From NCBI RefSeq assembly GCF_036669915.1, contig NC_089317.1, positions 248,001-312,000 on the forward strand: DNA of 64,000 nucleotides, read 5' to 3'. Positions within the stretch are counted from its first letter, which is position 1; every line of letters begins with the position of its first letter. The DNA is from Pocillopora verrucosa (taxonomy: Eukaryota; Cnidaria; Anthozoa; Scleractinia; Pocilloporidae). Shown here one piece after another: positions 7,532 to 54,315 of the stretch. Both the position numbers and the translations under genes were made by a program. The notes beneath the pieces are model-generated. The model had not been told where the DNA came from and made no database searches. It saw nothing but the letters and a program-made list of their open reading frames with translations.

Positions 7532-9942
7532 TTACTCCCCTGCTTTATGTATAAATGTTTTCGTCCGAGCCATATCTATCACAGACAAACTCATCTTTAT
7601 TGCACGACTCCTCTCATGAAGTTTCATATGATTGTTTCTACTTGACTTTTGAGTAAACCGCCGACCACACTCACTGCAGGCGAAAGGCTTTTCTCCGGTG
7701 TGAATGCGCATGTGTACTGCAAGGTTCCCGGATTGAGTGAAGGCCTTGGAGCATTGTGGGCATTTATATGGCTTTTCACCGTTGTGAACCCGTAAGTGAA
7801 TCTAAACAATAAACACATTCGACACTTGATGACAGAAATAAAATCAAATTTTTTCTGAACACTTCTAAGGCTTTATTATAGCTTTATCATGGACGCCATG
7901 AGATGAAAGTAGATAAATTGAAACCATTTGATAAAATTTTAAAATATCCATTCTTAAGATCGAACTCACTTCAGCAATCCATGATTATTACAAATTTAAC
8001 CCTTTACTCCCAAGATGACCTTAGTAATTCTCCTTACTGTCTGTCATACAATTCTTATGATGTGAGTTTACAGAATTGGGTATTGGATCACCTAACAATC
8101 TAAAAATCGATATTTGATGTATTTTCTCATCACCTGTCTGCTTGATATTATACCGATATTGTACGGAGAAATTCTCTCTTGATCATTCACGAAAATTAAA
8201 GGTTAGGAATGTTACCTTTAGCGTTCCTGGCCTGGCGTATGTTTTCAAACACACAGGACACTGCATTCGTTGTTTTTGTGTCTTCTTTGATTCAAAATCT
8301 TTAGGCATGTACGTATCTTTTTCTTTATGTTGCTGCGTCATCACTGAACAGACAATAGCTGTCTCGTGTGAAATCATCGGATCCTTATTTGGAAATCTTA
8401 TTACACTTTCCCGTTTCGGTCGCCGACTGCACGACGAGGGGTCATTACAGTCATTTATCTCTTCAAGTCTGCCATGATGATATTGATGTTGAGCATATCT
8501 GTTAATACAACATAATGAGGATACTGTCTTTAAGATGCCAGAGATCAAAAGGGAATTTGATCATTTACGAAGGCGGGGTTCAGGAATGACTCGTTCAAAC
8601 TGTAATCGACATTCACGTTATGAATTCTGCGAAAGGTTTGACGCGTCAACTTCCCAAACGAGGCTACTCTTTGCCTAGCCATAACAAGTGAAGACAGGTT
8701 TAAAATTTAGTTTCATGTAGAACGAGAATATTTTTCCGTCTCAGTTTCACTACACATAATTTGGGAACGGGAAGAAAATTTTGCAGTGGGCATTCCACGA
8801 AGCAGCTTCTCTTGTCCTCTCTTTCCAGGTCGAACTTTAATTTCGAATGTTAGTTTTTGTGGGGGGCGGAAAACCGGAGGAGCAACGAGAACCATCTTAA
8901 CTTACACGTGACATCAGGTCCAGAACCTGGACCAGAGCGGGTAGGAATGTGAGCGGACTCATCATTGCACTATTCCCATGTTTTTGTTTGTATAGGTAAT
9001 CACACGATTTCGAGTGCAATTTGGAATAAATAAGCACAAGCAATTTTTTTCAAAGACCAACAACATTGCACAAGCCCGCAAGGCGAGTGCAATTTGTGGT
9101 CTTTGAAAAATTTTCAAGTGCTTATTTATTCCATATTGCACGAGGAAATAATGTGATTACGTATTAATAGTATACATGAAAAAATACGAGATAGCTTATT
9201 ATAATTATGCAGAAGCAAAGAGTGCGCATCAAGTGCAAAAATAATTTATTCAAACCGTGCGTTCTGCGTATCCAAATGTTGCCACATCCAAGCTCGCATT
9301 TGATTGGCTATCAGTGAGTTTCTTTGATTGACCAATCAAAATGTCTGATTTGTTACTTCTTTGCACTGAATTAACCCTCTTCTGCATTGAATTACCTGAA
9401 AACTGCTTTTATCTTAACCAATCAGTACTGAGTAATTTTCTATGTATATTATTAGCACTAAAATGTATAAAATCTTAAGATGCACGTGCAGGGGCGTTCT
9501 GTTGCTCATAAGATTTGTTGTTTCACTACGTTCTCGTAGGTGTGTTCAAGCTTTGATCATGGTCTCTAATGATTATCACATCTCAGTGTCCTACCTGTCA
9601 TTTTTACTGAAATGCCGGCGTGTCGTATTTAGAGGCTTCTGCGAAGTAGTTGAATTTGTCGACCAAAAATTCTGACAGGAATCAATAGCAGCAGTGGTTA
9701 GGGGATCAACCAAGTAACTCCTCCCAGAAAGTGTACTGCACGTGTTCGATATGTCCTCGACGGTTGCTTCCACAAATTGATTTGAATCCTTTACACAATT
9801 AGAAAATAAATAAAAAAATATATTTCTTCTAGATTTAGTTTTCTTTTAGGAATATGCTGGAAAATATTCAAGATTTTAACCGACAAAACATAAGACCTAA
9901 GGCACTGAAGATTACCTCTTCCGTCGATTCTCTCACGTCCAT
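7532..9942 (-). CDS. C2H2 zinc-finger protein (paralogue B), 4 exons, ~257 aa
   Basis: Predicted exons on minus: 9942-9916 (MDVRESTEE), 9788-9595, 8498-8216 and 7801-7532; the frame is continuous across all junctions. The N-terminal 165 residues are Ser/Thr/Asn/Gln-rich without a known domain. The C-terminus has three C2H2 fingers: finger 1 is [15 protein letters not shown] plus IHLRVH, split by the last intron exactly as in A and C, and fingers 2 and 3 follow HNGEKPY and HTGEKPF linkers. A basic tail of about 25 residues follows. The role is presumably a nuclear DNA-binding regulator. The second intron holds a short palindromic element (8998-9159). This gene is transcribed away from paralogue C, with 1.5 kb between the two starts. 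Confidence 0.82.
8998..9159. mobile_element. Palindromic MITE-like element
   Basis: TAATCACACGATT at the left end is matched by AATGTGATTA in inverse at the right, and the arms (GCAATTTGGAATAAATAAGC on the left, GCTTATTTATTCCATATTGC inverted on the right) are long imperfect complements meeting near 9075. There is no coding capacity. It lies in intron 2 of paralogue B. Confidence 0.65.
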
Positions 9943-11451: not shown

Positions 11452-13038
11452 ATGAATCGCAAGGTTGGATTTCGACCACCAACAAAGAGACAAGGTATGT
11501 AAAGAAATGCCTTAATAATCCAAGATTTTTTTTTGCCCGTTTTAAAAATGGAAAATTAACATTTTAGTTAAAGTCACAAGCACGTACTCGGAAAATAAAA
11601 ATTCGGTGTTCCCCCAGCTGAGAAGCTAGAATCGAATCTATGACCTTTCGTCACTGACATGAATGGCCTGCCTCTAAATTGTATAACCATCACTTGGTCA
11701 AAACTCAACATCTTCATCGTCATCGCGGCGTAAAAGCCTCAAGGGGACTTTGTAATCTGAACGTGTGTGTGTGGAATGCTGATCACATGGAGATCTGTTG
11801 AAATGATCTAGAACAAAAACATAAAGAGAAATCACATAAAATCAAAATTGTTTTGCAAACCACGATGCCGAAAACGAAGAAAATTTTACTCGACACGAAT
11901 AAGGAGCGTAATGCTTCATTTTGGTGTAAATAATACATTTTCATATGCTGGTGTTAAGATAGAACCGAGGCCTCTTCCCTTTACTAACCTATGCGTCTCG
12001 TTTTGTGTTCAGCCCCTAGCATGGATTGTCCATATTTGGAATCCAAAGTGAATCGTCCAATCTTCTACCCGTGTGACACCACACGATTCTTGTATGGACA
12101 CTTGCCACCGGAGTTGATGATAATACAACCTTACAACACAACAGAGGGCAGTGTCACGGGAAATTTGCCTTTTTATTGCTACAATGGACACTTCTTTAAA
12201 CCTAAAACAGAACGGTGAGTTTTCTCTTCTCATTTGCTCTTAAAGCAGTTCCTTTATACCCCAATTTAATTTTAGTAAATATAACTTAATGCCATTAGTC
12301 AGTTTAAGCATCGCGTTGTCATAACAATTTCACTTTCCTCAGAATTGCCTTTAAACAAGCAAACCATACAAGTAAACACAATCCAGCGGATAAAGACAAG
12401 GTAGTCTTTGACGTCCCTATTGCAACTGCTGATTCGGGCACTTCCTCAGTTCGGGTGAAGAGGGAGAAACCAGACTCTCCCCAAGCCTCCGCTCGGGCCG
12501 TGACGAATCCCAAGTCTACTCCTTTTCCGAGCATGGTAAGGCTTGGTTACCTTTCTCAGAATCAAGCTGTCGCCAACACATCAAAGATGGCTGGAAAGGT
12601 GCTCGTTCGGTTCCAGTGCACTCTCTGCTCAAAAACTTTTTCCAGATCAGGCACTTTAAAGGTAAATGTTTATTTTAGAACTTACACATTTTCCCGCGCT
12701 TGGTACTGGACGATTGTTTCTGCTTGGTTCAACTACTTAGAAAATCAAGGAACCTCTCACACACTTGCCAACGGATTTGTTCATGACAGAATATACTCGG
12801 TGCCGTAAATTAATGTTTTTCCTATTTTCAGGTTCATATGCGGATTCATACTGGCGAGAAACCTTTCCAATGCCGGTTCTGCTCGAAACAATTCGCTCAA
12901 TCCGGGAACCTTTCTTCTCATGAAAGGATCCACACAGGTGAAAAGCCATTTGAATGCAAGTACTGCGGAAAACGTTTTACCCAATCCTCCGCGCAGAAAA
13001 GCCATATGATGACTCATATTAACAAGCAACTGCTATGA
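11452..13038 (+). CDS. C2H2 zinc-finger protein (paralogue C), 4 exons, 256 aa
   Basis: Exons: 11452-11494, 12013-12214, 12343-12661 and 12832-13038, with intron phases 1, 2 and 0. All junctions are GT-AG with good donors (GTATGT, GTGAGT, GTAAAT). Residues 1-175 carry no known domain but are rich in Pro, Ser and basic residues. Three C2H2 fingers follow to near the C-terminus: [15 protein letters not shown] / VHMRIH, then [17 protein letters not shown] and [17 protein letters not shown], joined by HTGEKPF linkers. The last intron splits finger 1 at the same codon as in A and B. Likely a nuclear transcription regulator. This is the best preserved of the three and can serve as the model for the others. 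Confidence 0.88.
11570..11690 (-). repeat. SINE-like, tRNA-derived fragment
   Basis: On minus it reads AAAGGTCATAGATTCGATTC and then a GGGG..GAATTTT..TTTTCCGAG tail, parallel to the copy at 4440-4575. It lies in intron 1 of paralogue C. Confidence 0.4.
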
Positions 13039-26496: not shown

Positions 26497-33349
<6,853 letters not shown>

Positions 33350-34463
33350 TTTAAATCAAGATGTAATTTACTCCTAATCCGCCGTGTTATCCGCCATTTT
33401 TTGTTATCATCGGTGAGCCAGCGGTCAAACGTACGAGTGCCAGTCCCTCACGCTCGCACTCGATCTCAAATAGCTACATTCAACTCTCTCGTGAGCGGAC
33501 ACCTTCGGGAATTCGAAAAAGAGTCCGTTCGTATAGAAGAGCTGTCCGTTTAGGATAATTATTCTCATAAGTGGAAACCAAAGAAAAATAGGGTGAATGT
33601 TCACTTTCGGGAAGAAGAGGAAGGAAAGAGGCCGTGGCCAGAACGCGGCACTACAGAAATTATCGCACTCTTGCTTATGGATAACTTGTTTTCCCACAGA
33701 CAAATGGGGATCGACAAAACTGGTCCCTACTGTTCTGTTTAGGCTCTGTCGAAGGTCACATTTTTGTCGAGTTGATTTGAAAATTCAAGACAAATTTCAT
33801 TGCAAGAGTCACTTATCATGCCTGGGGTGTCTGCTTACGAGAGAGTGTAAACAAGAGAATATCTAATTTTCACTTTTATAAGTGTCTGCGTCCGTTTATT
33901 GTTAAAGTGTCCTCTTACGGGAATGTATAAATACTAAGCAGGCAAAGCAGGGAACTGAAAAAGTGTCCGAAAGTAGAAATGCCCGCTTATGAGTGTCTCT
34001 TAGCGGAGATGTGACTGTAATTTGGCAATATTTTATTCCTCGGGCACTTTTCCATGGCGTATTCTTCCTCTGAACATTTACCATCTCTCCCAAGCTCACC
34101 TTTTTCTCACCTTTTAAAGGTTTTTTACCTTAATGGTACGCTATCCTTACAGAAGAAAAAAAACGCGCAATATACGTTAATGCGGGTTCTAATTTGTGCG
34201 TATGGCTACTGTTGAAATTTTGCGGGAAGTTGAAACCTATAACATAAGTTTTCAGGATTACATCTCGAGTTTTACTTTGGGCTCTGGCCCTGTACATTTC
34301 CTAACTCAATTCGTGCAGGTTTACCGCCATTTGAATGGTTAAATATTATTTTATTTTACATAAAATGTTTAAGAGTAATCTCACTTTGGACAAAAACAAA
34401 TCGCGCCCCGTCAGACAACAAGGCGAGATGTCTTTAAGAAACACAGGGACCAAGTTGTTATTC
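33350..34463. other. Spacer between TAF6 start and MGAT4-like 3' end
   Basis: The first ~100 bp should hold the TAF6 promoter. From about 33430 to 34020 several short words such as GTCCGTT, GTGTCCGAAAG and GCCCGCTTATGAGTGTC recur, in a manner typical of an old dispersed repeat; similar wording (TCGGTGTCCGCTTTATAG) appears near 59110. No exon found. Confidence 0.45.
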
Positions 34464-36521
34464 CTATTCTCTTGGCCAAACTGAAATCTCTCGAATCATA
34501 ACCCATTGCTTAGCGTCCGCAGTAAAATAAATTTTTAAGCATTTTACTGGAAAGCTCACGACAGTTTCCAGGTTTCTAACATCTAAAATGGGATCTGCGA
34601 AGGACCCAACTGCCTTACACTGTGATTCATCGCACGTGTTTGTTTCCATATCATTAGCGCACAAGAGGAGTTCGCTGTTGATCATAATATCTCTGTAAAA
34701 AGGACTTCCAGTGGTTACAAGCACACGCGATATTGCAAAAGGTTTTCCGAATTTCACAATAACTTTATCATCCTTTTTCGGTGTCCGGAGCCAAGCAAAG
34801 CTTTCTTGAATGAAAGCTTTCTCTATTTCATGACCTTTCTCACACTCGACAGTTGTGTCAAACTCAGCCCTTGGTTTTGCACCGCGTGGCTCTGCAGCCA
34901 GTTTAAAAAGGAACTGACCACCTGTCTGAGATGTTGATGAACTGGAAACCCTCAGAGCTGCAAAGAGATCTATGATTGATTGAGGGAAACGACCCCCTGG
35001 GAAAAGAGCCGCATATTCAGCCAAATCGCCAACTAAAGCCTCCGAATAAAGCCGCCCTAAGGAAGGCAGCGACCTTTCTCCGAAATCATGTGCGTAAAGT
35101 GTACGGTTTTTCTCTTCAATTCTGTTTACAACTTCCTTGATTACTGACAAATAAGGTTTCAAAGCACGGGCTTGATCGGTCAAAAGTAAGCAGTGTTTAG
35201 ACGAACGAAAGCAGTACTCGAGAAGGAAACAGAGTCTTTTGTTGAAGGCCATTGTAGTCTTTTTAAAATCCTCTGTTAATGTCAAATCACCCCATCCCAG
35301 GGGTTCTATGTTGACTGCCTCATTAAATTTATCCGTGGGATGTAAGACCTGAATGAGACCTTTGTCCACTTCGTGTTCGAATTCGCTTTTTATGCGCTGT
35401 AAGAGAAGTGATTTTGAATCTCCTTCGGAAACCACAGCGAACACGATGTCGACATGCTCATCTATTGAGATATGCTTTTTCAAGGAATAGAGAGCTTGTA
35501 TCAGGTTGCTCTCTTCGCCTTTCGTTGCAACAATGCCAAGAGTGAGGAAAACTGGAGAAAAATTGACAAAAGTCAGAAGAACGCAAATAAAAACACAATT
35601 GTACAAGTTATAACTCGCGCCTCACATTTCCGAAAATCGTTCCACCTGCCCTGTTACATAAGAAATTTCCACGCAGGCTTAAACGCGAAATGTTTGGAAA
35701 GAAACATCCAAGGCTCTAGCTATCCTGTATAAGAAACAAATACCGGTGTATCGGTGAATAAAACTGTCTTGAAATTTCTCTTCGGTTATTCTGTGTCTAA
35801 CATGACAAATATGCTCTTTCAGTAATTGCAAAATTAAACCGTTTGAGTTTCATTTTAGACCGTAATCTACCTCGTAAAATTAAGATGGCTATCGAACACT
35901 AATACCTTTCTGTTTTCTTTCCTTTCCAAGAACAAGCCCTTGGCTCATGTTCACACCGTCCAATACTCTTTGAGTGCAGTGACTCGATAGAGCTTTCAGA
36001 GGACACTGTTCAGCAGACATGCCAAGATTGCTGTCTGAATTTTCACATGTGAGCAGCAATGAAGTGCGCCTGTGGTAAATATCTGGAAGGCAAATGAAAG
36101 TAAAACAAAATCCTTAAGTACCACTAAAAAATTCCAATGAAACCTGTTTTTTTACAATCCATTCAAAATCTTACCTGTAGGAAAAAAAGCAAAGTAATCG
36201 ATTGAATAAATTTTCCACGTTAAAATTGTACGGATGATGTTTTGATTTTGATAAATCTCATTGTTGAGAGACTGAAATCAAATATATCTCAACTCAAATC
36301 TACATTCACTGACACCAATGAGGAACGAATAAAGTTTTCTTTTTGAAGATAAAAAGCGTTTTTCCCAAGAGATAAATATTGCAGTCGCCATATTCAAAAG
36401 TCAACAAGCTCACTAAATATAACAAACAACTGATGCATCGCTTACGTTTTAGTAATACCATTGCAGCATTAAAAATTATGACTCCATATAGGAAAATTGT
36501 GAAAAGGTTTTGCTTCCACAT
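34464..36521 (-). CDS. MGAT4-like N-acetylglucosaminyltransferase homologue, 3 exons, 446 aa
   Basis: Exons on minus: 36521-36446, 36082-35906, 35551-34464 (phases 1, 1). Residues ~4-24 (NLFTIFLYGVIIFNAAMVLL) form a signal anchor, giving a type II Golgi membrane protein. A stem follows, and from residue 85 a GT54/MGAT4-type region begins: LGIVATKGEESNLIQALYSL, then GLIQVLHP. The C-terminal part matches the MGAT4 lectin-like domain: GHEIEKAF, then FAWLRTPKKDDKVIVKFGKP and a closing WVMIREISVW. MGAT4 enzymes add a beta-1,4-GlcNAc branch to the alpha-1,3-mannose arm of N-glycans. Where active enzymes have an acidic EDD-type metal site, this protein has TDQA (residues 209-212), so catalysis is doubtful; it may resemble the inhibitory MGAT4D. 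Family call firm, subfamily not. Confidence 0.78.
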
Positions 36522-37993
36522 TTTATGAAAAATTTCCTTAAGTGAATAAGATGGAACTTTCAAAAGAAAGAAGATCCAAGAAGTTGACGGAGCAGAAAAC
36601 CTGCTGCCTGGTTACTGTACTCAGCCAGGAAAAATGTTATGCGGTAACCTTGAAATTTAGTCCTCCTGAGTGGTGATTGTTTAGAATTGAATCCAAATTG
36701 ATCAAAACTTAAAACCAAATCCTACTATAAACAACGATTTTGTCAAAGGAAAAAACAAACAAACAAACCAAAAACAATCTTAAATTGATTAAAATTTTAG
36801 ACAAGTCAATTGAGGAGGTCAAAACTTATCACCTGACCTCTGTCTAGAGATCGGAGTTGAGTGTTACTACGCCAACAAAACCTGAGGGAAAGGCGTGTGA
36901 TGAAAAGCTTCCATGCCCGGGATTCAGTTTTTAGTATGCGTTTTACAAGGATGTGCGGTTATGAATATGTCATCTTATTACGCTTTTTGAAAACAAGATC
37001 GGGAGGATATGCTGCATGTTACTATGGCTCCGTCGCACTTTGCGTTCTCCTTTCGCGATTCGCGTTCAAAGTATCTCACTTGCTGCACGTTTTCTCCACT
37101 GCTGACATCATTATGACGCACTCGCGCCTATCTTAAATGGGTTTCAGGGCATTTGGTAATTACACCGGAAATAGCTTTCAGGACATTACTTCCGTTTAAG
37201 GAATAACGTCAAAACACAGCAAACAAAGAGTCATAACCTCAACTAACCGATAATTTACTGATGACATGATTAACTAACAACTCATAGAGGCCAGATACAG
37301 AAATTAAGTATGGTCATCAGATTGAAATGGGTCATCGCAACTATGCGTCAAAAATAGTTGATATCTCAAGCACTCAATGATAAAAAGAAATACTTTTTTG
37401 ACCGAAAAGAAAAGGATAAAAGTTCTTTTCGGGAATAAAAGGGATAAAATAACGAAGGCAACTTGATGGGTGAACTGACGAGTGCCGAGGGAAATATGCA
37501 CAAAATTTGAGTTTGTTAAAAATAAGTTTAATTCGTAAAGTCACATAGGTACTATACGTGACCTTTTTATTTCCGCGCAGAAGAAATAAATCCTGCTATA
37601 GCGAGTCTAACTTTGAGAAATGTGTGTATCTGTATCCACATCATGAAGTTGGAAGAAAGTTTAATTAAAGTCAGGTCACCAGTAGCTGCGTTAATTACCT
37701 GGTAAGCATCTGAAAGCATCTCATTAAAGTTGATGTCACCTGCTAATTCATTGCCTTCACTCAACCTAACTTGACATTTTGTTTGAGGAGTTCACTTGCA
37801 AGCTGTTGTTCGATGAAGATAAGTTAGACTGAAGTGAATCTCCGAGTTTCCTCTGAGCCCGATCACTTCTCTGGAAACGTTTGCATGCAAACAAAGGAAT
37901 AATGAGTTGAGGTTTTGTGGTTTCTTGTTGCACGGTGGTGTACAAATTTGAACATTGCAAGCCCATAAATCGCCGTGCGCTGGCACGTTCTAA
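36522..37993. other. Divergent intergenic region, MGAT4-like / SAM-angiomotin genes
   Basis: The 1.5-kb gap lies between two divergent start codons and should contain both promoters. No exon was found; the open frame at 36861-37136 shows no recognisable protein and lacks support. Confidence 0.5.
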
Positions 37994-40900
37994 ATGGATT
38001 GGAACGCTGATGAAGTTGCTCATTGGTTAAAAGAAATAGGGCTTCCAAAGTATGCGAAAAGATTTAGAGGTAACTGATTTTTGACATTGTTAATCCAGCT
38101 CTTCCTTTTATCAGATACACTCATCCAATGAGCTATGCTTGACTCTAAGTGAGCAGAATGAAAGTTTTCAGTTATTCAACATGAACAATATCAGTCTGAC
38201 AGAGAAATCGTTAAGCGCGACAAGGTCATGCAATATCGTTTGTTTCAAATGTTTTGACAGAAATCTTTTGTAAAGTTGTTCTGTAGTACAAAGATGGGAA
38301 AGTTTCGCCAAATTTTTACAACACATTCATACTTGTAAAGTCTGTTCTCTTTCAATTATTCACTGTTGATTTCTGGTAGGATATCTTGTCAATGGAGCTG
38401 TTTTACTCCAAATGGATGATAATCTTCTTGGTAAGTACTTGACAACAAAATTAAACTCAGTTCCTTGAACAGAAATTATAACAGCTTCATATCTTAAATA
38501 TTTCGTCAAGTCCAAAGCCACGCTCTTAGCTTCTACACTCTCATTTATTTTATTCTACCGGCAGACAAAATTCGAATTACTTACTAACTGAACACATAAC
38601 TCTGATAATCAGAAGTTTAGCTTGATAAACAAACATACATTGGAAACCAAAACACAATTATTCCCTACATAATATTCAAACAGTAGTTGTGTGAAAATGC
38701 TCTATAATTCGCTGGATATAATACTGTCTGTCTCTCAGAGAACACTTGATCGATAGCTATAAAATATTTGCTCTCCTTCAATAAAGCAACGGGGCATATT
38801 GATATAAATGTGGTAAAGTTTAGACGCTCGGATAAGAGAGAGCACAAACTTTCGCCTTTGTTTATATTCTTGATTGCTCGCGATATTGCGTCAGAGAATA
38901 AATGTGAATCTTTTTATCTCCTAGTAAGTGTTTCGTAAGACGCTTTTAATCCAGCCGTTTTGCTTACTAATTAACAGCAGCAAGAGAACTTAACACTTTT
39001 TCCTCGCTTCACCTCTACGTAACACAACGAGGTTTACTTTTGATTCTGTGACTCTATAATCAGTGATTCCGCTCTCTTTTGTTTCATCTCTATGCTTTGT
39101 CGAAATGGGCAGAAATTCTCAACAATAGATCAACGGCTTATTTCAATTGAAGTCCAATTTCTTTTTATCTCAGCCTATAAAATGTTTTATGCTTCACTTA
39201 ATTAAACTGCAAATTAGCGACAACATGCAAATCACGAGAGGTCACGACAGTTGTAAACTAGTTGCAATTACCGGGCAAATTTGTGTCTATGACTTTTCTT
39301 CTGTTATGAATAAACCCTTTCTTTTACAGTCTCTGAAGGAACAGATGAAAACATTATTGTAACAAAACGCTTCATAAAGAAAAAAAGTTGAATAAAGACT
39401 TAAGAGAAAGAAGAAACTGAACTTGTGGTCTTAGTGATATAAAGTCCCTGTCAAAACCTAGAAATAATAAAATAATTTGTAGTATGGGCTCATTAACATT
39501 TTCAAAAAAGATTTGAACCTAATCAGAAAATTATATGAAAAGCCATTGTCGTCAAGAATGACATTGCAATTTTTAAATCATGAATTACTAAGCACTTTGT
39601 TCATCTATTTATTGTTATCTACATCAATCAATTGTAATTGGCTCAGCGGGAAGGGAGCTTAAGAAGAAGGGTGGTGGGGTGGGGGGTTAAGATTGCCCAA
39701 GTTTTTTCGGCAGAGTATGTAATGCTTAACAAGCTGTGGTTTGGGGGGTCATAACAATTAAACAGAGCATACAGGTTTACTTTAAGCGCTTACTTTTTAG
39801 TTTTTTTTTGGGACTTAAAGCCCTCAAAAGCGAGTGAATTTTGTCGTCTTAAATTCCCTTTAGACACCCGTTCCCCCTCCTCCTCCCCCTGTAGATTATA
39901 GCTCAGCTGGGAGAGTTATTTACCAGAAATTCTGCTTTTATATTTATCAAGCTAGAAAACCATAAGAAAAAACTCGAATTTGTTCATTTTGCCTTAACAG
40001 AGCAAGATTGAACTTTCAACCATTCATATGTTTCCTTCAGAAGCTCATATTTAGTAGTCAAAATCTAAAACTGCCCCATAAAGATCCTTTAGAACTGTTA
40101 AGGGTCTACATTCAGATCCTCGTGGTGGAGACATTTTCAATCAGCGATCAAGAATTTACTCTTGCTGTCGGCTAAATCTTCAGTGTAACTTAGTTCAAGA
40201 AAAAGTATATAAATATATAAAGAAGCAAAAGTTCAAACAACTTGATTTTATCTCTAATCTTTCTCCAGATGACCTAGAGATCACAAATGTTAAGGACAGG
40301 GAAATTCTCCTGAAAGAATCCTCCAAGCTTGCCTCAATAAAAATAAAACCAGCGCCCAATGGAAGAGACTATACAAAACGGACAAAAACCTTATGGACTC
40401 CTCGTATTACTGTGAGCAATTTTGATGACAATGAAAGTGAACAAAGATTTATTGTTGTGTATGACGGCGATGAGCGAAGAGACGGTAATGGATGCAGAAC
40501 GAATGAAGAACTGTTGAATCAAAGAGTTATAAGCTTCAAGCATAGAGATGAAGAAGAATCAGTGGGCGATGATGGCTCTGACGGAAATTTTAGTTACAAA
40601 GACAGTGACAAGCGATACGGTTTTGGTAAGAGCAATGTAATACTCTCTTTCAATTACTGTACTTGTCTGTCATAATAATGTATTTGAGTATCGATCAGTG
40701 AACAATCACCGACCGATTTTACTCATATTGAGCACCTATTTACTGAGAGAGCACGAGCTGTCTACGCCCGATCCGTTCCAGAAGGGTGTTAGGGACCTTA
40801 AGCAAACCACGTCGGCGACGGAGATGAGGAAATGGAAAAACAAAAAATCTAATTGGCAGAACAATAGCTCAGCACGTGCGTTTTAAAAACTTTGTACATT

Positions 40901-43900
40901 TCTTAGCCGTCCTATACAAAACAACAACGTGAAATCACCACAATTTGCATCGTCTCCAGACCAAAACCGCGACGGCAAATTGTTTTAATTTTCATTTGGA
41001 ACTTTTATACGCTATGACGGTAAACACATGCAATCATTTTTTAATTCTAATTAAAGGCAGAAATTTATTTTTTAATCGAAGTCTTCCTTGGCGTTGCCGT
41101 CCTGACTGCTTAAGGTCCCTATTAATAGTATGAGAGATCTCGGACACAGACCACAAAAACATCGGGCAAAAGTATAAGGGGGCCAAGACTGCATTTCTAG
41201 TCATGAAGTCTCTGTCGACTGGCTCATGAAAAGATTTAGCGGCCACATACATTTGTCCTTCTCCTGTAGATATACCTGATAAAGATCCAGACAGACCAGT
41301 TGATTCGACGCCAACAGCATCAGCAGTTGCCACAAGAGCCACTCAAATGGTTGAATTGTTATCACGTGATAATGTTGCATTACGAGAAAAACTGCAAAGC
41401 GTTTACCATAAGATGAGTAGAATGCAAACGGTGAGGAAAGAAAAAATCTCGTTCACGGTTTTTGAAGGCACAATCTGAGCACCATGATTTTAATCCCTCG
41501 GGATTGTTCGGTCTATTCCCGTAACAACACAAAATTAATCGAAGCCGGCATAGACACTTCCGGACATCTTAGAAAATGTTGTTTACACGAAAAAAGTTTC
41601 CTGGAAATTGTTAAAAATGAATCATAAAACATAGCAATCACATTTCTTGAATATAGCAAAAACAAAGAAAAATGTTTTTTTGAAGGCACTTTGCAGTGAA
41701 GCGAACTTTCTCAAGGAAATATTTTGGACAGATGATAAATCCTTTTTTGAACAAAGTTCAGGTCATCATGATTGGAAATTTACGTCATCTTTTCTTCTGA
41801 CGTTTTTAGGGAGCCTTGATATGTCTTGGTCCACACAACGAAAATAAAATTAGCCAGTATACGTAATCTCGACCTCAAGCAAGGTCAATAACGCAGTTAT
41901 ATTGCAGGTTGAAGATGAACTTGAGAGCTTGCGCACTGCATACGAGGAACTACAAATATCGTTTAAGAAACGTGAAAACCTGGAATACAGAACAAGAACA
42001 CGGATGGAAACGGAGATGAAGGAACTTCGAGAAAGAGACAGGAATCTTGAAGGTGAGAATGGTTTGGATTTCAAACAGAAAGGTATTGTAAATTAAATGT
42101 GAAACAGTTCACTGTTATTTTGGTATCAGCTGTATATTCATGACGACAATTTTACAGGAATGCTATGATCTAGTCATAATAGTATATCTTTCGGCTGCGC
42201 AAAAACATTCACGACACGATTGAAAGCAAACAGATCTCAGTAAAATCTGCTAAATACAGAAATATTCTTTAGGTAGATGTGAAATGATCATTTTGAAGAT
42301 AATAGATGTATGTTTTAATGTTTTAGGATGCTCTAGTCGCTGTTTGCCTGATCTTTCTTTACCCAAAAAACATGCATCAAAGACGAAAATAATGTTTGGA
42401 TTTTCTCCCGCAAACTTACAGCAAATACGAATGGAAAAAGACAATCAGTTTTCCACCTTAAAATCTGTGAATGAAAGAATGAAAATATTTCACAAATTTA
42501 TTTTTGAACTCGTAAGGGGAGACAGTAATTTGCTATTAAGTGGCACAGATATATTTAAATTAAAGGGGAATTAAAAATATTGGTAGAATATTTGCGATAT
42601 TTAGGAAACTTGTCAAAGCCGACATCTACTACAATGAAAAATCAGAAATAAGATCACGTTAGGTTCATTCGTGTTTTTTTCAAGCAGAATTCTACTACTC
42701 AGAGATTTCATAAGATTACAAATACCACAATTTTAACCTGATGACCGAACGGAAATCAATGAGTTCTCGTCATGTCATGTAATGTACGTATAAGGTCATT
42801 TTACAGACTTACAAGTTGACGTTTCTCATAATGATTGAATGTTTTATTTGATCAGTTTGTTGTTAAAATCTCTAAGGAAAGCCATCAACAGCCGATATAA
42901 ACCGATGTATAAATTAAGCAGATAGAGCTTGCGAAGAGGTATTTAAAGAAACAGAGACAAAATTAAGTGAGGTTTGTTTGTATTGATCCAGATTGAAGAC
43001 TTCAAGAACCTGTTCATCAAGTTGGAAAATACATGAACTGATTGAAGGATACTATTACACAAATACGTTTACGTCAGTTGTAAAAACTACGTTAGAAAGA
43101 CAACAAGTTTGGATGCAGTTAAAAAACTTCAATATTGATATCATTGTTGGTGATGTTTGTACCGGATATGGCGGTCATATTATTATCAAAACATTCTTCA
43201 CTTAATATTCTTTCAACAGCTGAACTAGAGAAATGTAAAGATGAAGTCGAACAAGGAAAGGTAATTTATCAAAACATAAAAGTTTGGACGATATGTAACA
43301 GCACACCTACAGATGTTTTCGAAAACAGGTCCAGGTTTGCAACCTTGTTCACACAAATACGTCTTCTTGTGCTTAATAAACCCCCAATATACCGACAGCA
43401 AGGCAACATTTCAATGGCCAAAGACAAGAGAATGTAAGAGCATGTATTAGCATGCGTATTAAATATATTTTAGCGCCTTAGACATTAAATATTACTAAAG
43501 CGTCTTGTACCATTTTCTTTTCTATTTTGTTACAGAATTCATTGGAGAACTTCAAGAGGGAACTTAGGCTCAAAAATGACATCATACGACAACTCATCGG
43601 TCAAAGTAATCTTAATACTAAGTTTTTAAAACACTTTTCAATGTGTTGAAAGTAATCCAGGACTGCAATGGTTTTGCTCCAACACGGTCTGTGATTGGTT
43701 TAGGAAAATTGCGCCATCTTCTCCACCAATCAGATACAAAAATAAAGCCAGCCGCGACTCGCTTTTTCCCGCGCTTTAAGCTGTTTCCTTTTAATGTGAG
43801 TTCCCATTGGCTCCCGCACGGTCTCTGACATAATCTCATGACCAGGTCTCCCAAAGCCACGCGAGCAGGACTGAGTGAGAAATTACTCCGGAAGTTGCCT

Positions 43901-44432
43901 AGTGATCAGACGGGCTTTGGTCCCTCTTGTCGTATACCCTCTCTCCTCTCTCCTGAATATATGCACGTAAGAGTTTCATGATCAACTTTTCACTTCGCAG
44001 CCAACGTAAGGCTTGTTAATTAACAATAAAAGAGCTGCTGCAGACAATCATTTTAAAAGTAGTTGATAGCAACATTTCATATGTCTGGAATTAGGTAACC
44101 TCTTTATTTCAACGCGAGAAGAGCTGGAACATACAATAAACCGACAGAACACACAAATTGAAGAACTGGAGAGAGATAAAGATCTGCTGAGTTCATCGCT
44201 AGCACAAAGTCGAGAGAGAATAACATGTCTCCAAAATGAGGTGAGATTCATGTTTTCTTGGAAAACAAAATTAAGACGTGCCCTAATTGGTTTGGAGCTT
44301 AAATAGCGTAATCCGTATTAGTTCAATCGCTCTGACGAAGGGCTAACGCTCGAAACGTCAGCTTTTAAACCTCTTTACGGTGGCCAATTTACGTTGTAAA
44401 CTCGGTTGATAATTCTAAATTACCCTGTTATA

Positions 44433-44469
<37 letters not shown>

Positions 44470-46035
44470 ATTACCCCCTTAGTTCAATTTAGCTTTAACA
44501 GAAATACAATGTTTCTATTACAGCTCGAGGAAAAGTTGCACAAGAATCACGTAAGCCCCACAGGGACGGTACATGGTCTGGGCATGATGGAAAGTAACCC
44601 TGTTGACGAGAGGTTGTGCTCAACAACTGCTGATGAAATAGGAACACATCACCGGCATTCAATCTCAGCTGAAGAAGTTATAGCAGAGTTAGATGGACCT
44701 ACATCTATCCCTGGGTTACTTGAAATGTTGAGAGAAAAAAACGAAAGGATTCAAGTGCTGGAAGATAATCTATCACGGGTAATTGTGAAAGTAAAATGTT
44801 ATTTTTTATGCAAAGAAAATTGGTGATTGAACCTTCGTCTGCTTCTTTTTAGCTTGAACAAACGTTAATGCAGGAAGGTACATCAAGGAGCTTGGCCATA
44901 AAAGCTGTCTCTGTCCCAAAGTAAGTTTATTCTTGCGCAATAGGTTCAAAAAATTCCATAGATGAGTCATAGCTCAAAAATCAAAGTGAGCGCGAACAAG
45001 TGTTAGGAATCATGTACCTAATGGAAGACCTGAGAAAATGCGTAACTCGAAAAATAAAATGGCGGGAAGATAGCACAATCCGTGTTGGGAAACGCGTTAC
45101 TCACCAATGCGCGGTGATAACAAATGAACGAAGAAAGCGCGGTGTAATTTGTGTTAATGCGCGAAAAAATCTTTCACCACAGTTCTAATGATGTGTTATG
45201 TATCTAATTCAGGGAAGCACGGATAGCGGCATTGGAAAAATCCATCCAGGAACGTGAAAAGATTATTGCTGAATGTAGAGCGGAAAATTTAAAATCCGTT
45301 GAAGAACTATACGTGGCCAACAGGCGCTGTGCTGATTTAGAATCTATGTAAGTGATAAGAATGAGTATTTTTACCTTCCATCGAACTATAGTGATTTTTA
45401 CCACAGGAACACTAACCTTTAATATTCCACCTTCTTCAACATAGAATAAAATCCCTTCACTCGCAGTTGGCGGAGAAGACAGCAACAATTAGAGTTCTTC
45501 AAAATAATAACAACGATGAACTGAGTGAGCCTGAATGGCCACTAGACCCAGCCTACTGTCGGACAGACTTCGCTCAAATGAGGGAACTGGCGCGAGATTC
45601 TTGTAAGTAAACTTGTACCTGAGGAGTACATTGTAATTACTTGAGCATTAAGAAAAACCTCATGAAAATTGTCTTAAATTGTTGATATGTTCTGTCCTTT
45701 GTTAGATGCAGAGTCACTTGATTCCGGAATGTCACTAACTAATGCACTAGATGCGAGACAAACAGATCCTGAATTCAAGGTACGGTGAAAAGTAAATAAT
45801 TAAATAATCAAGAAACAAGATCTTCATTAGTGCAGCCATGATATGATGTGGAAGTGAATTCTTGCGATAATCAGCTGAATACTGCAAGGATCCAGGAATA
45901 TCATTGAAATGTGTAACTTTATAGTCGGAACTGTATGTCAAACTACGAAAAATTCCTTTTTTTCTGTTTTGTTATTCATCTCCACAGACAATGGACGAAC
46001 CAGACGAGCTATCAGTTCACTTTTGGTCTGTGTAA
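37994..46035 (+). CDS. SAM domain plus angiomotin-like coiled-coil protein, 14 exons, 594 aa
   Basis: Exons: 37994-38069, 38380-38430, 40269-40625, 41270-41430, 41908-42052, 43220-43260, 43536-43605, 44095-44240, 44524-44778, 44853-44920, 45213-45347, 45445-45602, 45706-45779, 45988-46035. All junctions are GT-AG and in phase. Residues 1-65 are a SAM domain (VAHWLKEIGLPKYAKRF, GAVLLQMDDNLL, DLEITNVKDREILL). An acidic, probably disordered region spans ~85-165. From ~180 a long coiled coil follows angiomotin closely: TAYEELQISFKKRENLE, LLEMLREKNERIQVLE, and ANRRCADLESIIKSLHSQL with AEKTATIRVLQ. The last residues SVHFWSV make a hydrophobic-x-hydrophobic PDZ ligand, as in vertebrate angiomotins. 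Angiomotins scaffold junctions and actin and restrain YAP; here no PPxY or LPxY motif is visible. The join of SAM and coil exons rests on phase and needs transcript proof. Confidence 0.78.
40791..41120. mobile_element. DNA transposon fragment (MITE) with AGGGACCTTAAGCA termini
   Basis: Ends are AGGGACCTTAAGCA and TGCTTAAGGTCCCT, exact inverted repeats. The interior shares CAGCACGTGCGTTTT and TTTGTACATTTCTTAGCC with 17106-17472. It lies in intron 3 of the SAM-angiomotin gene. A TTA or ATTA target-site duplication is possible at the edges but not clear. Confidence 0.78.
44328..44480 (+). ncRNA. Hammerhead-like motif plus Penelope-type tail
   Basis: CTGACGA at 44332-44338, GGGC-TAAC-GCTC (a four-base-pair stem and loop), then GAAACGTC at 44352-44359. 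AGC after the cleavage box can pair with GCT before the first box (stem I), and ACGT is self-complementary, as in dimer-acting type I hammerheads. A conserved tail follows (GGTGGCCAATTTACGTTGTA, then CCGACGCAGCACCACAG), also present at 52830-52960 (inverted) and in the 53.6-53.9 kb element. It lies in intron 8 of the SAM-angiomotin gene. Confidence 0.5.
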
Positions 46036-49000
46036 CAATTACGATTCGGAAAGGTCATACAGACTTCATCCAAGTGTCGTCTCGGATATTCGGATCAGAA
46101 TATTATTTCTTACGAACTTCCTTTGAAATGATCAAGCCTAGACCTCAAAAGTCGAGATCTCAAAATTTTAAGGCACAAGGAAAGACGAAATGTTCTGAGA
46201 CAATCCATTTTAAGGAAGACCAACCCACTCAGAAGTCTCCTGTTGGAGGGGATTAATTTGGACAATACTCTCCTGGAACACTATGCAGTATCACTGCCAT
46301 GTCTATTGTAAGATGGGGGGAGGGAAGGGGAGGGGGGGCTCAATCGATTTGCTTTGCTAGAGGTATATCACCTCTTCACCAAGAATTATTAATCAAATCA
46401 TCAAGGATATTGGCTGTGAAGCAGAGCATCCTATCATATGATAAATTAAAGGCATTTTTTAAGAATTCTTGTTCATCGAGAGCGCCCTCGGTTTTGTTTT
46501 TCCTGATGTACCAGTTCGCCCAGGTTTAAGTGAATTTCTCTTCGTTCGCAGTCTATCAGCGCCGGGTGAACGACTCACTTCTCTCTCTGCCATATCTTTT
46601 TCCAAGCTCGCTAAGAAAAAAACAAGATTGAAAAAAGAAAAAAAAAACTTACCATCTCTCTTATTTCTGTAAGATTGAAGTAGTAATGGTTCCTTGGTAA
46701 TAGTTTTTATCAAAGTAAAAGACACTACTGGAGAAATTCATTTTCGCTTCATTACCCACCCCACCCCCTTGCGTTTTGAGTGAAAACAAAAACAGTAAAA
46801 GCTGACCAAGTGGACAACTGATGATGGGCCGGTTATTTAGACAAAGTTTGACCGTTGTTTAACAAAACTGTGCACTAAGCTATCCACAATTTAGCTGAAC
46901 CTCTTACCTGTATACTTTATTTTGTGAACTGTGTCAAGAGGACCAAAAATTAGCAGTGGAAATAAAATTTATCTGATTACAGTCAACTCTCTTATAAAGA
47001 AAACCTGAGGCTCACTGCTTGCGCAAAATCGCGGTTTGGGTTAGACCTCGTGTAAATAACCGGCCCGATATGTTTTACAAGGCTGTGATTATGTGACTTT
47101 ATAAAGATCATTTTCTTACCTAGAAAATGGTCAGTGATAATAGATTTATCCCTAAGAAGAGGTTTGTAAAAGGATTTTCCATTTTCCCCTGAAAAGAAAA
47201 ATTACAAGTAAAAATTCAAGATCACGTACTTAAACTTTTTTTCAGAATAAATTCTAAATGCCTGGAAATGTAAGTATTAACCTTGCCAGGGATACATATT
47301 ACGCAGTTCGCAGAACCACATAGGAATACACTCGAAAGCGAAAACTCAAACCATTTATTTTCAGGGATTCCAATGATAATCCACAAATGTTCCATAATCG
47401 AACCGAGTAAACATCCAATTTTGACAATAGAGTAGATTTTCGACTGTTTCAAGTTTGACCAACAACAACAACGATTTTAGGTAACAAAATATGCCAGTAT
47501 AAACACGACTAGTTCTTTTTCGACAAACACTTGGTCCGTTTCGCGGACGTTGACGTAAAAAATGTAGGCACGCAATGGGAGTACAACACAGCATAACGTA
47601 CTTTCCATTTGTATTAGGACGTATTTTCCTCTGGGTTTTAAGAAATTTGTGGCATAAGATTCTTGAGGCTGATGTTGTAGATATTTTGGATGACCGGTTA
47701 CTTCACACAGATCCACTTCAGCTGAAGAAAAAAAAAGGGGCAGAATCCATCACAGCTTCTGCATTGGCGTTACTTGTTATTCATTTTGAACTATTTGGTG
47801 TTATTTATCGTATGACAAACCATTTCTTAAGAAATGCTTCAATAAAAGTATACAGCATGTAAATTCTATATAAAACTCCTGTAAAAATCTTGCGTTTTGA
47901 TTGGCTGACATTTGCCGCCCCATCTTGCCGCATGCGTATTAGACTATTGCTACATGAGGATGAGCGGCGATATGAGCCACATCACGTAAGTGCGCAGATA
48001 TCCATAAGTGTGACCCCACCCACTCCTCCCCCATTTATTTGAAAAATCCTGGAGTCGGAACAAAATATGATTGTCACAAATATTATATTTTAATCACCTT
48101 GCATTTCACACTTGCACAGCTTTTTGATACAATCTAACAACAGCTTGAGCTTGCAATCGGTGTTAAACAACACTTCCTCTTGTTCTGCGAAAAACAATAC
48201 CTCTATGAAAGGTTAAGCGGCCAATACTCTGAGCAGTTATGGAGCTCGTTGCAGCTGAAACACGTTTCCTAAGACCTTTTCACAAAATTTATACTTGGTA
48301 ATCCTTGGACCCCTATGAGCGACCAGCATCTAATTTTTTCCTACAATATCACTCCTGAATCAAACATTTAGATCATGAATATAAAGGAAATGATCACCAA
48401 CTTAAGAAGCTCTTGATTATTAAACAAGTTCTCCTTGTCAGCTCACAAGGAAATCTATAGAGAACAGCATGGCCAAAATACATACAGAGGTGTGCTAAAG
48501 GGTGTAAAGAGTTTAAGTATTCACTGAAATATCGTGACTAAACTATACTCCAGAAACCCTTAATGATACCAAACTTTAACGAGCACTCCTCTTTACCTGA
48601 CAAAGTTCAAATGTGAAGAGCCTTTTAGATATTTGTTTAATTTCTGTCTACTTTGAAGATCCTTAATAACTTTTTCAGTCATCTATGAAAGAAGCTGCAT
48701 TTATGTTGTACTTATGTTTGCTAGATACCTTCACTGATAAAGTTGCAGACTTACCCCCATAAACGACTGTAATAAACATTTTTCTCAGAGCTTCACTTGG
48801 TGCCTCTTATTCAACTAATTTCATCCGACAAGTTCAGGATCTTAAGTAATGTAATTAATTTTGGAATCTTCTCTTGCTAACGAGGTGCTAATTAAATTCT
48901 TTGCAAATTGTTTTTTTCAAAATTGTTTTGATCTACAAAAGCCTGAAAGAACATCAACTCACGGATTACGTGGAAACAGAAATTCATCGAATATTGAAAA

Positions 49001-49643: not shown

Positions 49644-51849
49644 TTAATCCACAGAATTTTCTAATTTAGCAGCGTTATGAGAGCGAAAACATGGAATTAC
49701 TGCCTGAAACCCACTTCTGAATTTCCGGTAAGTCAGGGTATATATAAATGGGTTGCAACCGCTGTTCAACATAGCCAGCGTGGTGGTGATGATGTGGTAA
49801 CTGTCGGGGAATGGGCACAAGCCGTTTGTAAAGGTTAAACACATCATTCCAATAAAATGAGGAAACCAACAGAGAAGGAACGTGCCATTTACCACAAGCA
49901 GGATAAACGTGATCTTCATCTCCTTCCTAAAGAACACATTAAAGATAAAATGTTTATTCCTTACAGTGGGCGACCGTAAGTCAAAAATCACAGGATGAGA
50001 GGGGGGTACCATTTGACCATTTTTTCTACTTATAGGTTGAAATACTAATTCTTTTTCAGTACTACTTTTGAAATTATTTCACAGTTGGAAAACACAACTG
50101 GAACCCTTACCCTCAGAAATAACAAAGGAGAGTTTTATGGAAGGGGATAAGAAGGGTGCACAGGGGAGGTAACAAACAAGGGGCACAGGGAAGGTAACAA
50201 ACAGAAACAAGGGTTTGTCCACTGATCAACTTAAAAGTTGAAGTAATTGGTTCAAGACTTGCCTCTTATGTCGCCCGTCTCCCTTTTTCCGCTCGTTCAT
50301 CCATCCGCGCATTCGAGCGAGGGGTTCCGGCAGCCCGGCGGTAGCTGTTATTGTTCGGGAAAGAGGGTATCTCTTTCCCTCGGTTTCTTCTGGAATAACC
50401 GTCGATTCCTTCCTTGGAGAGATATCCTCTGTCCAGCGGTTTATTACCGGTGCAGCGACGTCAACTTTATTAACACCAGTTCTACGAGAGGAAGGGATAC
50501 TAAAGTTCCTGGGGTGTTTGCCTTTTCCAGCCATTTTAGAGCAACCTTTGGCTGCTACGACAGTATTTAATTGAGCCACTCCACTTGTACTCGAGGGAAC
50601 GACTCTAGATGAGGATTTTCTCTTTGTTTCTTTTTTCCGAATCGTAGATGTCGAACTCAGCTCAGAGTCACGTTCAATCTCATCATGGTGTTCTTCCATT
50701 TTAAGTGAGGTCGATTCAGATTTTTCCGGCCCGATATGACATTCCTCAAAGACACTTTTCTCCCACCTCTTCTTTGAATTTGAAATGAATACATGATTTT
50801 CTTTTCCGCGAACATATTTTCCTGAATTATCGCAATTTTTATCGAAAGCTTCTTCCGTGCTACTCGTACCAGGCTTCACATTCGACCCACTAAATCGGCC
50901 AACCGTGACACGTGGTTCCTCGCGCGCTTTACGACGAGCGGTTTTCAAGACACTTGAGTAACACAGCACCACGACGATCACGGGTGTCACGAAACTTGTC
51001 GCGCTAAGAAACATCGTGTAACTCTTATCGCTTTCCCATTGGACTGTACAGATGAACTCATAAGGCAAATAAACATACCTGCAACAACATGAATCGAAGT
51101 TAGCTGAAAATACAAATGTGTTTCTCTGTAGAGCGTTAAGTTACGGAAGAGTTTCGGTATTTCTCGGCCCAGTTCAATATGTCGAAAACGCACGCGCGCT
51201 TGAAAATCGCTGATTCATCCCAGAAGAAGGAAGATGAACTCTCGAATGAATGAATGAATGAAAAGCTAAACTGAGGGGAAAATTTAATTTTGCGCGAATA
51301 TTGGTCACTAAAAAAATGATTGCTCAATGCTTACACCGTAGTTAATGATTGAAGGCCCAGAAAAATGCAGATCAGATCTAGAAGATAAAAATCAACTGAT
51401 TTCACAAACCTTGACCAACCAAACACAGGAAGAATCGCCACAAATAGAGCATGTATCCAGATGTAAACCAATGTAAACCTTGCTCTTCTGACAGTCAACC
51501 AATTTCTGTACTGGAGTGGGTATACAATTGATAGCCATCTATCAACAGATACTGCTGTTAGCGTCAAAACAGATGTCACACAGAAGAGCGAGTTGGTCAA
51601 CCCACTTATTACACAAAGAGATTCACCAAACAGCCATAGTTTGTGAAAAGCTGAAGCAGCTATCAGAGGCATCCCAATGATCGACTGCAAGAGATCTGCC
51701 ACAGCGAGATTTGCCAGAAACATTCCAGTTTCATTCCGTAACGGTTTGTAACGGATTATCACGAATAAGGTCATAACGTTTCCAATCACACCGATTATTA
51801 TAATTCCGCTTATAACGATTCCCGTGATGAAACCGATATCGACTGGCAT
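49644..51849 (-). CDS. Class A (rhodopsin-type) orphan GPCR, 3 exons, 512 aa
   Basis: Exons on minus: 51849-51410, 51078-50263, 49926-49644. Seven membrane helices can be placed: TM1 with GN (N24), TM2 LAVAD (D52), a TM3 start with C79, TM4 FGW at its end, TM5 SFVTPVIVVVLCY, TM6 with CWFP, and TM7 NSGCNPFIYTLTY with the NPxxY motif. The DRY box is DRW (103-105). A second conserved cysteine in loop 2 (FIC, 157) can bond with C79. The third cytoplasmic loop is about 225 residues and rich in Ser, Lys and Arg. The N-terminus is only a few residues. Intron 2 has a GC donor (AG|GCAAGT) and keeps frame with the acceptor at 49927. Amine-receptor or GPR161/GPR52-like affinities are possible; the ligand is unknown. 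Confidence 0.85.
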
Positions 51850-54315
51850 GATATGCGATAAGTATCTTACCAGCACGGTCAAAAATACATTTAAGTTATT
51901 ACTGCACGATGGAATTTAGGTCTGTGAATGGATATAGATGATGAGAGGAAATTAGGCCATGAAAAAAGCCATGCAGAGAAACTATTCCTGTTTTTCGATC
52001 TGCTCAAGTCTTGTGATTCTTTCAGCGTTATACAGATGCCTTTAGAAGAATAATCTACGTCAGTAATCGGACGTATCTTTGTTCTAAAGAAGAATGGAAG
52101 AGGAATGAAAAAAAAATGTTATTGATGTTTCACGTGTTCCGTTTGGCTGTATTTCCTTGATCAAAAAATACCTTTTATCAATAGCAATGGGTTATAACAA
52201 GTATCGCGTTAAAATTGAACATCCACACTTGTTCCAGAACGTGATCGAAATGCTTTCCTTCGCCGATTCACAGCGGAAGAGTTTCTTTATCCGAATAAAA
52301 CGCCGCTAGTTAAATAAGGACTTGTTAGAGCGAGGAAAGTTCCGAAGGCCTTTTCCACGAGATGCCACCTAAAGAATACCGCTTTCGTCTCTATATTCAT
52401 GGTCTCCAATCCAGCTGCGCCTCTTTTTCTTTTCTCCTCATCGTCCGCAGAACATTTTGGATCACATTTTCAAAATAAAAATTCAAAGAATGGAAAATAT
52501 TGTTCTCAGATATGACAGATGGCAGAAATGGCTTCCTCGACTAAAAAAACTTCTTGCATGAACGAATCTTTATCCTCCACGAAGTGAAAAATAATTATAA
52601 CAAGAGCTAATCGGCTATTGTTACTATTGTCATGAAAAGGGATAACCATGAAACACCACACACATCGGAAGCAAGAAAATGCTTTTCTATTGGTAGTTTT
52701 GGTCATTTTTTTTCAATAATTTTAATGATCTTAAATTTAAGAAATGAACTTATACTTTAGCGCATCATGTTTTCTTCGTCAAAGTAAACTCGTACATTTC
52801 TTCCAAATAAAGGGGGCAAGTTTCTAAAGAAGCCGTGGTGCTGCGTCGGTGGGAGAGTATAACAAGGTAATTTTGTATTATCGACCGAGTTGATAACGTA
52901 AATTGGCCACTGTTAAAAGTTTCAAGCGTTCTCCTCTCGTCAACTCAGTTAATAACACCGAATTACATTTCTTCAAAAGTTTGTTTGTTTGATATTGTCA
53001 GAATGTATTAACGATGCTTTTTCAGTTTTTTTCCCTTGAAAACGATCTTGGCCATTTACAAACAGCTGCTAGATTCCGTAAATTTGCGTTTCCAGTAAAT
53101 GATGAAACATAAAGAGTTATCCAAAGGAAAGCGTGGGCTGATGAGAGGGGGTTGGAGCCTAGGACAGGACATTGAGACGAGGCGACAATCGCGTCTTGTG
53201 TTCCCTCACGTAAAGGAGAAAAAAAACTCACTGGCGGCTGTAACTCACCTTACCTCATTCTCATTTGAGGAGTCCTCATTTCTTTGGTCACGTGGTCGGC
53301 GACACGAAAGACCGTAAGAAAAACCGAGAGGCGCTGAGAACGAGATTGGCCCGTCCCATATCTCTTTTAGATTAGTGGTTTGCGCATACTCGGTATAACA
53401 GTGAAAGCTTATGTTTCAAGACAGATCATCTTAGCGCTGAAAATAACATATTTTCAAAATTATCAAATACAGGAAGGGAGTCAATATTCTATGCAAGTGA
53501 CCGACGAGGTCCTTAGATGCAATACGGGATCAGAAACCATCCAGAAGTTCTCCTCGCAAATTTAATACGACTTTGTCATCTTTCAAGTAAATCAAGCAAC
53601 CAAGGTAATTCAGTCTTGTCAACTGAGTTGATAATGTAAATTGGCCACTGTGAAGAGTCTACAAGCTGACGTTTCGAGCGTTATCCCTTCGTCAGAGTGA
53701 ATGGGGGGAGGGGAGGGGTTTTAGGGAGCCCTTATTCGCTTTGACGAAGGGCTAACGCTCGAAACGTCAGCTTCGAAACTCTTAACGGTGGCCAATTTAC
53801 GTTATCAACTCAGTTGGCAATACTAAATTACCCTGTTACACTCTCACACCGACGCAGCACAACAGTATCTTTAGAAACTTCCCCCTTTGATCAAACAGAC
53901 AAGCCTGTTGGCGGTAACATCAAGCAAACAATCAAGCCTTGGCATCCCTCCCTGGGATCTATCGCTAGCCGCTTTTGCACGGGAAACCAAAATCGATGTC
54001 TTTCTTGAAAAAAGCTCTCGTTTAAAACAAGACGGTAAAGTTTCCAACATGTGCGCATATAAGAGGCTTTCTGCGTAGTCAGACCCGTTTCTTCTTATTT
54101 AAGACAGAAGATCTGAAGATGCGTCCTACAGATGTTACAGGATTCAAGTTCTTTTGCTTCCCTCTCGCAGCTTGTGCCACTCAGAAACGAACCAGCCACG
54201 CTTCTGCCAAATATAATAACTTCCGTATTTTAGGTATAGCCTGTTGAGAGAATACCAGAAGAAAACAGTTTGCTCCTGTTGAACAAGTAGCAGAAAAAAA
54301 CTACAAATAGTTTGC
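51850..54315. other. Spacer between GPCR start and PARL 3' end
   Basis: No supported exon. The part next to 51850 should hold the GPCR promoter. An inverted Penelope-type tail lies at about 52830-52960 (CTGCGTCGGTGGGAGAGTAT, GAGTTGATAACGTAAATTGG) without its hammerhead boxes, and a palindromic element lies at 53602-53880. Confidence 0.5.
53602..53880. mobile_element. Palindromic Penelope-type terminal repeat pair with two hammerhead-like motifs
   Basis: Left arm (minus) and right arm (plus) are inverted copies meeting near 53700-53740. The left, read on minus, has an intact CTGACGA, GGGATAACGCTC, GAAACGTC series (53695 down to about 53667). The right has TTGACGA, GGGCTAACGCTC, GAAACGTC (53741-53768). 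Outer ends carry the GGTGGCCAATTTACGTTATC tail found at 44 kb. No reverse transcriptase is left between the arms, so it is a solo or collapsed copy. Confidence 0.6.

Follow-up and report, generated by a model that had tools for sequence, protein, structure and literature searches.

A predicted angiomotin scaffold with an N-terminal SAM domain in the coral Pocillopora verrucosa

Results

A 14-exon gene and its neighbours

The window, by which we mean the whole 64 kb stretch of DNA analysed (C6:248001-312000 of a genome of 353 Mb in 52 contigs), is unbroken and contains no N. On its plus strand lies a gene of 14 coding exons, running from an ATG at 37994 to the end of the stop codon at 46035, and the coordinates that the initial annotation gave for it (37994..46035) proved exact, as did its start, its stop and its 14 exons. 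GT-AG borders are present at 13/13 introns, with consistent phases, and splicing yields 1785 nt including the stop, a single open frame of 594 codons. However, the exon ends were picked by eye so that the frame stays open. The open frame is therefore not independent proof by itself, and the independent proof of the exon chain is the profile matches described below.

Exon 1 (37994..38069) carries the start codon and the first part of a SAM domain (aa 1-25). An in-frame TAA at 37991-37993 directly abuts this start codon, and therefore any protein that uses exon 1 starts with the SAM domain. The middle of the domain (aa 26-42) is encoded by exon 2 (38380..38430), and its end, together with a charged linker (aa 43-161), by exon 3 (40269..40625); both exons are symmetric, with phase 1-1, a pattern often seen in shuffled animal modules. 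Exon 4 (41270..41430) begins in phase 1 and opens the angiomotin coil (QMVELLSRDN...), which continues through exon 5 (41908..42052), the sole exon to match PF12240 alone in a genome scan, and through exons 6 (43220..43260), 7 (43536..43605) and 8 (44095..44240). Exon 9 (44524..44778) holds a linker and opens the main Angiomotin_C match (LLEMLREKNERI), which extends over exons 10 (44853..44920) and 11 (45213..45347; ELYVANRRCADLES) and ends in exon 12 (45445..45602; IKSLHSQLAEKTATIRVLQ). Exon 13 (45706..45779) encodes a C-terminal tail, and exon 14 (45988..46035) the final residues (...DELSVHFWSV), a candidate PDZ ligand, and the stop. Intron 8 contains, at about 44334-44362, the sequence GACGAAGGGCTAACGCTCGAAACGTCAGC, which we take to be a motif common in cnidarian genomes.

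A Pfam scan of the surroundings took in 8 of 23 open frames, and the two nearest neighbours that it recognised are both on the minus strand. Upstream of the gene is a frame resembling an MGAT4-like N-acetylglucosaminyltransferase (34464-35621, minus strand), which scores 51.3 bits with MGAT4A_C (cut-off 42.9) and 50.8 with MGAT4_cons (cut-off 51.5). The second neighbour is a class A GPCR (49644-51915, minus strand) with 7tm_1 matches in two frames, at positions 1-131 and 195-260; between these parts lies a 304-codon open frame (50226-51140) that perhaps encodes a very long third cytoplasmic loop. Elsewhere in the window, short frames at 3153-3533 and 8183-8560 (both minus strand) and at 12308-12808 (plus strand) share a C2H2-finger-like half, C..C followed by F/Y.R.G.L(K/R)V, with no Pfam match at E up to 0.01.

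Both domain profiles match the spliced protein

The initial annotation had proposed a HMMER run on the spliced protein, and hmmscan bore out both of the expected domains above the curated cut-offs of their families. SAM_2 matches at aa 3-59 with E 6e-13 (49.2 bits, cut-off 20.5), as does SAM_1 with E 3.4e-10 (40.6 bits, cut-off 23). Angiomotin_C (PF12240) matches in two stretches, the first starting at aa 219, with E 3.7e-19 (69.5 bits, cut-off 23.5). Thus the claim that SAM-coding exons 1-3 are in phase with angiomotin-type exons is sustained, with one open frame of 594 residues in which both profiles are found. When exons 1-3 were scanned alone, SAM_2 returned E 9.9e-14.

As coiled coils acquire chance matches easily, the coil could in principle be an unrelated, generic one that merely resembles angiomotin, attached to a SAM protein. 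Exons 4-8 scanned alone are barely above the Angiomotin_C cut-off (E 2.5e-5, 24.3 bits), and other coil families also match the spliced protein weakly, every one of them under its own cut-off. Exons 9-14 alone, however, score 60.1 bits (E 2.7e-16), and the scan of parts and controls, which took in 6 of the 9 sequences prepared, assigned no family at E up to 1 to one shuffled coil or to one coil shuffled with its heptad positions preserved; the reversed coil matched three families, all below their cut-offs and none of them Angiomotin_C. Furthermore, two blocks of the coil align with presumed human AMOT blocks, and do so in the same order as in the human protein. The block at aa 183-275, which lies partly upstream of the profile match, is identical at 36/93 positions (score 173) and the second block at 42/112 (score 178), whereas the maximum over 500 heptad-preserving shuffles per block was 66 in both cases. 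A generic coil is thus extremely improbable.

One gene or two

Two adjacent genes, a SAM-only gene made of exons 1-3 and a short conventional angiomotin starting from about exon 4, would fit the length of introns 2 and 3 (1838 and 644 nt) and the eight AATAAA/ATTAAA words in intron 2, although these polyadenylation-like words lie within AT-rich DNA. Translation of a p80-like protein could also begin at Met188 (41347), where the coil opens, if its first exon were non-coding. Exon 3 itself runs 102 residues beyond the SAM match, from aa 59 to aa 161. Against such a split, the exon 3 donor is a canonical GTAAGA in phase with exon 4, and the read-through frame stops at 40675; the exon 4 acceptor is preceded by a pyrimidine-rich stretch, the open frame of exon 4 contains no ATG upstream of Met188, and intron 3 contains no AATAAA and a single ATTAAA. 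The initial annotation had named a separate promoter and start codon before exon 4 as a sign of two genes, and a simple scan of introns 2 and 3 for a rival coding first exon (an ATG extending to a GTRAG donor and joining exon 4 in phase) found none, a scan blind to transcripts whose first exon is non-coding and whose translation begins at Met188. Codon bias, trained with intron 2 in the non-coding set and exons 4-14 in the coding set, gave the exon 3 tail 0.049 in frame 0, against a maximum of -0.026 in 84 intron windows. Frame 1 of the same tail, with four stops, scores higher still (0.126), and so composition does not pick its frame. We give two separate genes a low probability.

A single gene might also make a p80-like form alongside the SAM-angiomotin, either through an internal promoter or by starting translation at Met188. 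This would parallel the p130 and p80 forms of vertebrate AMOT and is compatible with the explanation that we prefer. The position of Met188 speaks for it, as does the vertebrate p80, which is described as arising by alternative splicing without 409 N-terminal residues (PMC5898069), but the simple scan found no internal coding first exon, and we regard a second product as rather doubtful. Judged from the sequence, the SAM domain and the angiomotin coil lie in a single open chain of exons with compatible phases, which makes two genes unlikely.

YAP-binding motifs and the C-terminus

The 594-residue protein contains no match to PPxY, PPxF, HxRxxS (the LATS site) or [ST]QT (the LC8 motif). Its single LPxY is the LPKY at aa 17-20 (38042), which lies within the SAM domain and whose tyrosine is probably a core residue of that domain. 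With PPxY absent and the lone LPxY inside the SAM domain, neither the N-terminal LPxY/PPxY arm nor the HxRxxS by which p130 and the AMOTL proteins are recognised is found. A weakly tankyrase-motif-like RRDGNG at aa 112 we count as no evidence.

Hidden YAP-binding exons were also sought in the plus-strand frames of 33000-47000. These frames contain PPxY at 33379 and 43381, LPxY at 35646, 36604, 38042, 44420 and 46904, and HxRxxS at 33449 and, with a stop inside, at 35851; only the LPKY at 38042 falls within the exon chain. The PPxY at 43381, a PPIY, is reached only with intron 6 retained, after which the frame stops, and it is possible that an intron-6-retaining isoform would carry a YAP-binding motif.

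The last five residues of the protein are H-F-W-S-V, with hydrophobic side chains at positions 0 and -2. Of the PDZ ligand that had been claimed for this end, the hydrophobic pattern stands; binding stays putative, and the FWSV ending presumably differs from the vertebrate motin C-terminus.

Copies and relatives

Searching the same genome with the protein by tblastn produced 13 matches with an E of 1 or less; 12 of them are this locus, and the remaining one is a weak SAM match at C3:19439994 (E 0.007). PF12240 matched the genome once, in exon 5 of this gene. Thus no second angiomotin copy was found in this genome, by scans that ran exon by exon, in which PF12240 missed the gene's own exons 9-12 and a diverged copy could be missed. 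SAM_2 gave 34 exon matches, one of them exon 1 of this gene, and there is no clear SAM donor or sister among the listed SAM_2 and tblastn matches. The nearest solved SAM sequences are the neurabin-1 SAM, 2gle (E 1.6e-8, 37.5 bits over one domain), and the liprin SAMs of 3tad, whose E of 1.3e-12 is reached only by adding up three domains that score about 16 bits apiece. Pattern matches in prokaryote contigs (28) and viral contigs (4) yielded no confirmed relative, an absence that means little given this prokaryote and viral scope.

Discussion

The explanation that we favour, with moderate confidence, is that one gene encodes a 594-residue angiomotin scaffold with an N-terminal SAM domain, which would act on Hippo signalling or polarity by scaffolding and not by PPxY-WW capture of YAP. 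The angiomotin coil would dimerize and bind the membrane, Merlin, and Hippo or polarity partners, as vertebrate Amot-p80 does, and a PDZ protein in the junctional complex might be the docking site of the hydrophobic FWSV tail. Standing where p130 has its YAP-binding arm, the SAM domain would cluster the scaffold or link it with a second SAM protein. By eye, it has an acidic mid-loop (DDNLLDDLE) and a basic KDR before its last helix, a distribution that is suggestive of, and would suit, head-to-tail SAM contacts.

In vertebrates, angiomotins tie cell junctions to YAP (PMC5746249). The LPTY/PPxY arm binds YAP, and Amot-p80, which is without this arm, fails to bind YAP1 (PMC5898069); the N-terminal layout of vertebrate motins is also given in PMC5415356. 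As PPxY and HxRxxS are absent here, and p80 without the arm fails to bind YAP1, we read the coral protein as a p80-like body that appears to carry a SAM domain where p130 carries its YAP-binding arm. However, the WW- and PDZ-binding motifs of AMOT are reported to have become conserved only within vertebrates (PMC5746249), and so this protein may not be alone in lacking WW-binding motifs.

Several known systems invite comparison. With the vertebrate motins (AMOT, AMOTL1, AMOTL2 and, above all, Amot-p80), the protein shares an Angiomotin_C match over the cut-off, a hydrophobic C-terminus and, judged by presumed human AMOT blocks, a pair of coil blocks whose order is kept. It differs from them in its N-terminal SAM domain, the lack of a PPxY arm and of an [ST]QT LC8 motif, and its FWSV end. 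Neurabin and the liprins are scaffolds that combine SAM domains with a coiled coil, and neurabin-1 and the liprins provide the nearest solved SAM sequences. Unlike them, the coral protein has its SAM domain at the N-terminus and a coil of angiomotin type, and it lacks the PDZ and PP1-binding parts of neurabin and the three SAMs of liprins. Tankyrase, finally, also has a SAM domain, and in vertebrates it has been linked to AMOT as a regulator (PMC9688111), but no other tankyrase domain was matched, and here the SAM domain sits on the angiomotin itself.

Published accounts of the age of the family vary. AMOT orthologues have been reported in all vertebrates and in none of the invertebrates analysed (PMC9688111). 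Elsewhere, AMOT is present in arthropods and lancelet, is absent from the fruit fly and is taken to be younger than KIBRA (PMC5746249). The text of the latter source does not contain the word SAM, and further domains are marked in its Figure 8, among which there might be a SAM in an invertebrate AMOT. A word search of a paper on Hippo signalling in Hydra (PMC8526868) found no word starting with amot or motin. A cnidarian Yorkie has been described that is nuclear where there is proliferation and otherwise found mainly in the cytoplasm (PMC4761220). Among the matches listed in the full-text literature there was no description of a SAM-angiomotin, although databases may hold automatic names for one, and papers that name both angiomotin and the SAM domain are, by title, mostly on tankyrase. 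As far as these searches go, the combination of a SAM domain and an angiomotin coil is an architecture undescribed for the motin family.

It is tempting, if tentative, to see in this protein an ancestral or deep cnidarian form of the motins, and we hold this to be possible rather than likely. A junction scaffold clustered by SAM, without direct YAP binding, would then have come first, and the SAM module, joined through a phase-1 intron, would later have been swapped for the disordered YAP-binding arm on the way to vertebrates. An anthozoan SAM-angiomotin would place the angiomotin coil before the split of cnidarians and bilaterians, with a different N-terminal module, and it allows the sequence of changes to be tested: was YAP capture acquired later, and was the SAM domain lost or gained? 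The wiring of the angiomotin scaffold for growth control may therefore be different in early animals.

Additional observations

To judge from its GFP family, the host is most likely an anthozoan. For this family, a search of the same genome returned 74 exon matches, many of whose listed entries carry stops within the scanned stretch. Two clusters lie on contig C1, at about 0.67-0.88 Mb and 28.36-28.79 Mb. For one exon, the nearest solved chains include the LEA ('least evolved ancestor') GFPs, amFP486, EosFP and Azami Green, which we take to be fluorescent proteins of anthozoans (corals and anemones).
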